Positions 21,392-23,265 of a DNA stretch of 36,695 nucleotides are shown here, one piece after another (the stretch's first letter is position 1; every line of letters begins with the position of its first letter). The position numbers and the translations under genes were made by a program. The notes beneath the pieces are model-generated. The model did not search any database. It had not been told where the DNA came from and saw only the letters and a program-made list of their open reading frames with translations. Origin of the DNA: Spirochaetales bacterium (GTDB taxonomy: Bacteria > Spirochaetota > Spirochaetia > DSM-2461); assembly GCA_028532905.1 (NCBI GenBank), contig JAQQAM010000010.1:1-36695 (forward strand), given 5' to 3'.

Positions 21392-21838
21392 ATGAGTATA
21401 CTGGATTTAGTTACAGAAGACTGCATCAAAGTTCCCCTTGAAAGCACAAGAAAAAACGATCTGCTCCATGAAATGATAGACCTCCTCAAGGAGGCCGGTA
21501 AAATTTCAGATCCCGATGCCATCTACCAGGTGGTGCGGGCCAGAGAAGATCAGGGCAGCACCGGACTGGGAGAAGGCATTGCCATACCCCACGCCAAAAC
21601 CGACGCCGTTACAGATATAACCCTGGCCATAGGCATCTCACCACAGGGAATAGATTTTGAATCCCTCGACGGCGAAGACGCCAAGGTGTTCTTTATGATC
21701 CTGGCTCCCCCTGATAAATCGGGACTCCATATTGAAGCCCTCTCGGAAGTCGCCAGACTGACCCGGTCCGCCGCCTTTATGCGGACACTGATTCATTCCG
21801 AAACTCCCGCTGAAGTGGTGGAACTTTTTCAGGAGTAG
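21392..21838 (+). CDS. PTS EIIA domain protein (fructose/nitrogen type)
   Basis: The protein has 148 residues and is a single EIIA-2-type domain. The phospho-acceptor His67 is in IAIPHAKTDAV, the normal motif. There are no EIIB or EIIC domains, as in PtsN-like regulatory proteins, which are phosphorylated by NPr/HPr and control other proteins rather than sugar import. AAGGA precedes the ATG. It sits 44 bases after the Usp gene; the next gene is on the other strand and overlaps its last 62 bases. Regulation of the ATPase or of sigma-54-linked processes is possible but unproven. Confidence 0.9.
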   Translation: MSILDLVTEDCIKVPLESTRKNDLLHEMIDLLKEAGKISDPDAIYQVVRAREDQGSTGLGEGIAIPHAKTDAVTDITLAIGISPQGIDFESLDGEDAKVFFMILAPPDKSGLHIEALSEVARLTRSAAFMRTLIHSETPAEVVELFQE

Positions 21839-22046
21839 TAAGGCAGTTCCCCTTCTCCGGGGTTACAGACAGCTCCGGAGAACTCACAAAAGCAATGGAT
21901 TCAGCCTCGTATAAAAAAGACATCAGACTCAACGCCGCCAGCCCGGCCTGAAGCCTTCCGGGATTCCGGTCTTTTCCCATGGCTCCATCGCTATCATTCC
22001 GGGTATCACTGACCGTGACCGGTTCACTCAATCGGGGATTTTTCAT
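21777..22046 (-). CDS. Small protein of unknown function behind a sigma-54 promoter
   Basis: The ORF has 89 codons and begins at ATG 22046, with GGAAAGGA placed 6 to 8 bases upstream; a second ATG (22052) is too close to that site. The product is polar with one weakly hydrophobic stretch (GLAALSLMSFLY) and Pro/Glu-rich later parts; I recognise no family. Its last 62 bases are antisense to the EIIA gene, so its C-terminus could be partly an artefact of that overlap. The excellent promoter and ribosome site are the main reasons to call it real; the sequence itself gives little support. Confidence 0.45.
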   Translation of the reverse strand: MKNPRLSEPVTVSDTRNDSDGAMGKDRNPGRLQAGLAALSLMSFLYEAESIAFVSSPELSVTPEKGNCLTTPEKVPPLQREFRNESVSA

Positions 22047-22082
22047 GTTCATTCCTTTCCAATAATCTCAAAGGAACATATT

Positions 22083-22097
22083 GCAAAGGCTGTGCCA
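22083..22097 (-). promoter_or_regulatory. Sigma-54 (RpoN) promoter
   Basis: On the minus strand the sequence TTGGCAC-AGCCT-TTGCA places the invariant GG at 22096-22095 and GC at 22084-22083, with the required spacing. It fits the consensus TGGCAC-N5-TTGCW exactly. The transcript should start near 22071, 25 bases before the ATG at 22046. Sigma-54 promoters need an enhancer-binding activator, and none is encoded nearby. Confidence 0.75.
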
Positions 22098-22160: not shown

Positions 22161-22400
22161 TCACCCCTGATCGGCGTAATACACCTCGGGAGCATCAAAG
22201 TTCAGGGGATAGTATAGCTCCATTGATTGGGCGGCCTCCCCGTCTTTATGAACAATACCCAGAGGCCGGGCTCTCAACCGGGAGTGCAATACTTCATCAA
22301 TTCTCATCTCCTGCCTCTGAATAATCAGGATCAGCAAAACGGCGCAGGCGGCGGTCATAACAGAGTAGACACTCAGGGTTAATACAAGATTGTAGATCAT
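22161..22400 (-). CDS. Small single-span membrane protein, unknown function
   Basis: The protein has 79 residues. Start ATG 22400 is chosen because AAGGAG lies 9 bases upstream; a longer in-frame form from 22448 has no ribosome site. A membrane span covers about residues 3-23 (LVLTLSVYSVMTAACAVLLIL), followed by a basic then acidic soluble tail ending YYPLNFDAPEVYYADQG. The likely orientation is C-terminus in the cytoplasm, by the positive charges after the span (inference). The gene lies between the sigma-54 gene and a site-2-type protease on the same strand, with a hairpin-rich stretch upstream. No family is recognised; membrane-anchored regulators and leader peptides can look like this. 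Confidence 0.65.
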   Translation of the reverse strand: MIYNLVLTLSVYSVMTAACAVLLILIIQRQEMRIDEVLHSRLRARPLGIVHKDGEAAQSMELYYPLNFDAPEVYYADQG

Positions 22401-22435
22401 GGCTTTTGTTCTCCTTACAGGAAGCAGAATACAAA

Positions 22436-22460
22436 ACACATGTGTCACTTCATGACATAT
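22436..22460. promoter_or_regulatory. Overlapping palindromes upstream of the small membrane protein gene
   Basis: ACACATGTGT (22436-22445) is a perfect 10-base palindrome, and TGTCA-CTTCA-TGACA (22443-22457) is an inverted repeat with 5-base arms, extended on both sides with one mismatch (ATGTGTCA against TGACATAT). They lie 36-60 bases before the start codon, where an operator could act. Confidence 0.4.
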
Positions 22461-22490
22461 ATTTAAACTTTATTGAGATTTTTTTGTTCA

Positions 22491-22606
22491 CCCCCCGGAA
22501 CCGGGGGGACAGGCTTTCCGCTCTACCTGCTAACGGGCAGAATTCTTTCCTGCTTCCTCCGGTCCGCAGGTTCTGCCCGGCAGGGTGCCGCTGAAATCCT
22601 TTTCAG
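22491..22606 (-). other. Hairpin-rich intergenic stretch, candidate structured RNA
   Basis: Three perfect stem-loops occur in 116 bases. The first is CCCCCCGG-AA-CCGGGGGG (22491-22508). The second is a nested one with outer 9-bp stem CGGGCAGAA/TTCTGCCCG (22534-22542 with 22571-22579) and inner 5-bp stem CCTGC/GCAGG (22549-22553 with 22566-22570). The third is CTGAAA-TCCT-TTTCAG (22591-22606). It is not a standard terminator: the minus strand reads A-rich after the last hairpin. No coding frame is apparent. The minus strand is preferred because it allows one further stem with a G-U pair, but the strand is not certain. It does not match a riboswitch class I know. Confidence 0.5.
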
Positions 22607-22611
22607 GGATA

Positions 22612-23265
22612 TTATGCACTGAGCTCCGGAATAATCAAAGCAAACATAAACCTTAAAACACCCCCCATCATCCGGCTGATAGGAATAATCTCCACATCCA
22701 GAGCCCGGTTGATCAGCAGAATGGCCAGCAGAATATACACACCCCAGCGGTTATAGGAGCTGATAAACGCGGTGTTCCGATTGAATAACGCTGTCACCAC
22801 CCGGGAGCCGTCCAGAGGGGGAATGGGAATCAGATTAAACAGAAATAGGAGGATATTGATTATGAGCACATACTGAATCACAGTCACCACAGCTTCTGTC
22901 CTCATAAAAGCCAGTGCGTCGCTCAGAAAAACAAAGCGGAGCAGAACTGTAAAGAGCAGGGCAATCAGCAGATTGGAAAAGGGTCCGGCCAGAGAGGTCA
23001 GAACCAGGCCGGGATATCTGTTTTTATAGCTGTCTATATCGATGCGTACCGGCTTGGCCCAACCGAATCCGGCGGTCAGGAGCATCAGAGTTCCCCACAA
23101 ATCCAGATGCTTCAGGGGGTTCAGGGTCAGTCTCCCCTCCAGCCGGGGAACGGGATCACCCTGCAGAGACGACACCCAGCCGTGGAAAAACTCATGAACC
23201 GACAGGCTCATCAACAGAATGGGAACTAGGAATATAAGCTCCTGAACAGACAGACTGAACAGCAT
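22612..23265 (-). CDS. Site-2-type membrane zinc metalloprotease (M50 family)
   Basis: The protein has 217 residues and is nearly all membrane, with about five spans. The zinc motif HEFFH (His24-His28) lies in the first span and the third ligand is Asp152 in IPPLDGS, matching M50B proteases. There is no PDZ or CBS domain, so it is the short form typical of many bacterial genomes. Such enzymes cut substrate proteins inside the membrane; the substrate is unknown here. The ribosome site is GCGAGG six to seven bases before the ATG, with a TATAAT -10 element upstream (23290-23295). The next gene downstream on this strand is the small membrane protein. Confidence 0.92.
   Translation of the reverse strand: MLFSLSVQELIFLVPILLMSLSVHEFFHGWVSSLQGDPVPRLEGRLTLNPLKHLDLWGTLMLLTAGFGWAKPVRIDIDSYKNRYPGLVLTSLAGPFSNLLIALLFTVLLRFVFLSDALAFMRTEAVVTVIQYVLIINILLFLFNLIPIPPLDGSRVVTALFNRNTAFISSYNRWGVYILLAILLINRALDVEIIPISRMMGGVLRFMFALIIPELSA

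Follow-up and report, generated by a model that had tools for sequence, protein, structure and literature searches.

The locus considered here lies in a window of 36,695 nucleotides (the whole stretch of DNA that was analysed, from a Spirochaetales bacterium), in which a predicted sigma-54 promoter reads towards the end of a convergent PTS EIIA gene. The question that it raises is what this promoter transcribes: a gene encoding a small protein, a non-coding RNA, an antisense regulator of EIIA, or nothing with a function. The window and its genome (G000) were compared with the two nearest relatives, G004 and G001 (Spirochaeta sp. UBA5339), with the congeners G002 and G003, and with G005; a literature search found no sigma-54 papers on this lineage.

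An exact sigma-54 promoter sequence in front of a probable small gene

Both the −24 GG and the −12 GC elements of the sigma-54 promoter consensus are present at the locus, and TGGCACAGCCTTTGC, within 22097–22082 on the minus strand, presented no mismatch to that consensus, in agreement with a preliminary description of this DNA, which had reported an exact RpoN match (TGGCAC-N5-TTGCA). No other sigma-54 site with fewer than two mismatches is present in the window, and a pattern search of the 4.98 Mb genome identified nine exact TGGCACN5TTGCW sites versus none for the reversed-pattern control. The predicted transcription start (Table 1) precedes the ATG at 22046 with the geometry previously claimed. 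Judging from its sequence, this is very probably the sigma-54 promoter of the small gene. A search for activator sites revealed a TTTACC-N9-GGTAAA repeat approximately 50–70 bases upstream of the −24 element in G004 only, and no motif common to the small-gene and pspA promoter regions was seen when these were compared by eye.

Table 1. Features of the locus, with positions in the window
Feature	Position	Strand	Basis
Sigma-54 (−24/−12) promoter, TGGCAC-AGCCT-TTGCA	22082..22097	−	Exact consensus; kept at the locus in G004 and G001
Predicted transcription start	22071	−	12 nt downstream of the −12 GC; inferred from sigma-54 geometry
Ribosome-binding site, GAAAGGA	22053..22059	−	Sequence; 6 bases upstream of ATG 22046
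Small ORF, 89 aa	21777..22046	−	Ribosome site and ORFs at the matching place in relatives
Single hydrophobic helix, residues 29–54 of the 89-aa protein	21885..21962	−	Kyte-Doolittle maximum LAALSLMSFLYEAESIAFV; AlphaFold
ORF tail antisense to EIIA, not conserved	21777..21838	−	Relatives' ORFs end earlier
Convergent PTS EIIA gene, fructose-type	21392..21838	+	PF00359, TIGR00848
79-aa orphan protein with N-terminal hydrophobic segment (MIYNLVLTLSVYSV...)	22161..22400	−	Conserved in G004 and G001

The 89-codon ORF described earlier behind an ATG with a ribosome site was recovered as such (22046–21777, GAAAGGA); an alternative ATG at 22052 would give 91 aa but lies directly on the ribosome site. 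The description of this ORF as belonging to no recognised family holds as well, as no Pfam or NCBIfam match was found, and none above cut-off to PspG or another known Psp effector family. In the AlphaFold model of its product, the helix is the sole fairly confident part, with low confidence elsewhere, and a model with a single helix was too weak for a fold search. Because hydrophobicity is moderate (19-residue Kyte-Doolittle means of 1.5–1.9), insertion into the membrane is uncertain.

Sigma-54, its activators and other sites in the genome

The genome encodes rpoN (PF04552 match, G000:C118, E = 4e-57), the absence of which had been named beforehand as a refuting result, and about 19 clear PF00158 proteins, i.e., enhancer-binding activators of sigma-54. 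Seven of the eight other exact sites sit before a plausible gene start, suggesting that the motif predicts sigma-54 promoters well in this genome. The genes behind these seven sites encode PspA (TIGR02977 score just over the cut-off), Hsp20, a Dps-like ferritin, an OEP/TolC outer-membrane efflux protein, an amino-acid-type binding protein (SBP_bac_3), an ABC ATPase, and an HMGL-like enzyme similar to homocitrate synthase; for the eighth site (L059), no ORF of at least 30 codons was reported downstream. A near-identical sequence bearing TGGCACGGAAGTTGC is found in G000 and G003 (L059 and L179). It is not followed by a clear long ORF and is possibly a repeated element or an RNA gene.

The pspA gene is located behind sigma-54 promoters in G000, G002, G001, and G004 (L061, L066, L079, and L187), and in G000 it is arranged divergently with a PF00158 activator gene (G000:C235); this appears to be a spirochaete Psp system. 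In G001 and G005, a gene encoding a sigma-70-family factor is located directly behind a sigma-54 promoter (L069:1543–2379 and L088:626–1507, respectively), an arrangement that recalls the RpoN-RpoS cascade of Borrelia.

Conservation of the promoter and the ORF

A syntenic block consisting of EIIA on the plus strand and the small gene, the 79-aa gene, and an M50 protease gene on the minus strand is common to the window, G004, and G001. At this locus, 11/11 promoter core bases are kept in G004 and 10/11 in G001; identity over the 16 bases of the promoter is 94% and 69% in the two relatives, compared with 27–43% just upstream and 34–37% just downstream. The promoter is thus a conservation island amid diverged DNA. 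This conservation of position and sequence across three genomes argues against a promoter-like sequence without function, an explanation that we regard as very improbable.

Downstream of the promoter, the ORFs encode 89 aa in the window, 63 aa in G004 (62 from its ATG), and 54 aa in G001; each is preceded by a ribosome site, and their distances from the promoter are nearly equal. Conservation of promoter and ORF in related genomes, which had been suggested as a further check, was therefore found in both G004 and G001. In dinucleotide shuffles, an ORF of at least 50 codons with a ribosome site arose there by chance with a probability of 0.05 (window), 0.01 (G004), and 0.03 (G001), which, if these are independent, gives a joint probability of approximately 1e-5. 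The window and G004 proteins resemble each other (p ~0.001 against shuffles) and have the residues RL..G.AAL.L.S....A.S...V..P..S in common; the similarity of the G001 protein is marginal (p ~0.04 with the window protein and ~0.2 with that of G004), and the predicted protein of each relative, like that of the window, has one hydrophobic segment. DNA identity over the ORF is 29–35%, below that of the neighbouring genes. The presence of an ORF with a ribosome site in all three genomes, the similarity between the window and G004 proteins, and the helix support a real, fast-evolving small protein.

The same data bear on the alternative that the transcript is a small non-coding RNA, comparable to GlmY of enterobacteria, with the ORFs being incidental. 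Sigma-54-driven sRNA genes exist, with glmY listed as transcribed by sigma-54 (PMC4591121); like GlmY, the predicted sigma-54 transcript would be short and would come from an intergenic region, and the retention of the promoter while the ORF sequence diverges fast is consistent with such a gene. Unlike a GlmY-type sRNA, however, the window gene has a ribosome site and an open frame, both kept in all three genomes, and its predicted RNA structure does not go beyond chance, with folding no better than that of shuffles in the three genomes (z = −0.66, 0.44, and −1.35); nor was the gene covered by any match in Rfam. A structured RNA was rejected on these near-zero z-scores and the lack of an Rfam match, and a small non-coding RNA seems rather unlikely.

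No convincing homologue of the small ORF was found beyond the three genomes, either by a homology search in 40 relatives or by a profile search in the family. In G002 and G003, EIIA and the protease are distant from each other or on separate contigs, and the searches found neither the sigma-54 ORF nor the 79-aa gene; in G005, there was no match to the protease. As these three genomes lack the arrangement, the small-gene unit appears to be lineage-restricted. Apart from Spirochaeta sp. UBA5339, the matches listed in a contig scan with EIIA included no additional close relative, as judged by EIIA identity.

The 79-aa protein encoded upstream shows stronger conservation than the sigma-54 small gene (46–47% identity in G004 and G001) and is absent from the remaining family members. 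Upstream of its gene is a partly conserved dyad (22400–22470, minus strand; TGTCA-N5-TGACA in the window), which is possibly a regulator site. A sub-threshold Rfam match to Flavo-1 RNA (22503–22614, minus strand; 25 bits versus a gathering threshold of 42, E = 0.026) covers a stretch that is largely without counterpart in the relatives.

The EIIA gene and the antisense overlap

Between 12558 and 21838, the plus strand of the window carries genes for a V-type ATPase and, after these, a universal stress protein gene and the PTS EIIA gene; the pairing of the latter two is found in G004 and G001 as well. The preliminary description, pointing to the link between EIIA-Ntr proteins and sigma-54 regulons elsewhere, had suggested that sigma-54-driven antisense transcription through this EIIA gene might be a feedback device. 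Among the NCBIfam models, however, this EIIA passed the fructose EIIA model TIGR00848 (108.6; cut-off 103.5) and scored far under the cut-off of the PtsN model TIGR01419 (78.2; cut-off 138.7), and its identity as PtsN (EIIA-Ntr) was rejected on these scores. With EIIA being of the fructose type, the feedback idea is left without its main premise. The ORF does run 62 bases into EIIA, as had been noted (ORF end at 21777, end of the EIIA stop codon at 21838), but the ORFs of G004 and G001 terminate short of the EIIA stop codon, by 34 and 3 bases, respectively, indicating that the coding overlap is peculiar to the window lineage. As in the relatives, the core of the ancestral ORF probably did not reach 21838, and the most likely origin of the overlap is the loss, in the window lineage, of a stop codon that the relatives have upstream of EIIA; an assembly matter is less likely than such an extension, and the overlap looks incidental. 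Of the earlier reading, a conserved and very probably sigma-54-driven small gene in a genome with rpoN thus stands, while the EIIA-Ntr premise does not, nor is the overlap kept in relatives.

No intrinsic terminator was predicted at the junction of EIIA and the small gene in any of the three genomes; transcripts may therefore overlap, making antisense read-through possible, and sigma-54 antisense feedback on EIIA is, from the gene layout, a possible outcome. The sigma-54 transcript might then act mainly as a 3′-overlapping antisense regulator, with read-through lowering EIIA when sigma-54 is active. The tail-to-tail genes, which are 34 and 3 bases apart or overlap by 62 and have no predicted intrinsic terminator between them, resemble an excludon; overlapping transcription is common in bacteria and can be functional (PMC7154746), and antisense roles have been proposed for sigma-54 transcripts (PMC4591121). 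However, the window pair differs from an excludon in that its coding overlap is not conserved; in addition, the ORF with its ribosome site is kept in all three genomes, EIIA is not PtsN-type, and termination may be Rho-dependent. We consider a mainly antisense role unlikely. A dual function, in which the mRNA of the small gene would encode a membrane peptide and also silence EIIA through terminator-less read-through of the convergent pair, is very improbable.

A probable accessory protein of the sigma-54 regulon

On balance, we consider it fairly likely that the locus represents a genuine, lineage-restricted sigma-54 transcription unit encoding a small, fast-evolving, and probably membrane or envelope accessory protein. 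An active enhancer-binding protein would allow RNA polymerase with sigma-54 to start at approximately 22071 on the minus strand, and the resulting short mRNA would be translated into a rapidly evolving small protein of 54–89 aa, whose N-terminus is polar, whose single short hydrophobic helix is probably membrane-inserted, and whose tail is variable; most likely, this protein would serve as a membrane or envelope accessory of the sigma-54 regulon.

PspG, a phage-shock effector, is a short hydrophobic protein encoded by a stand-alone small gene. In E. coli, it is a member of the PspF/sigma-54-dependent regulon (PMC2763126). The small gene of the window likewise stands alone behind its own sigma-54 promoter and encodes a short product with a hydrophobic segment, and pspA of the same genome also has a sigma-54 promoter; however, the small ORF matches no family and its product has one helix only.

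Should the mRNA indeed have the dual function considered above, envelope or nutrient signals would be coupled to the regulation of sugar transport in spirochaetes. As a sigma-54 transcription unit, the locus would extend the sigma-54 regulon of free-living spirochaetes by a conserved small gene that lacks annotation. Stress and envelope genes (pspA, hsp20, dps, and tolC) are among those located behind the exact sites that were sampled in the genus. The locus also suggests that a promoter, being better conserved, can mark a small gene better than the protein that the gene encodes.
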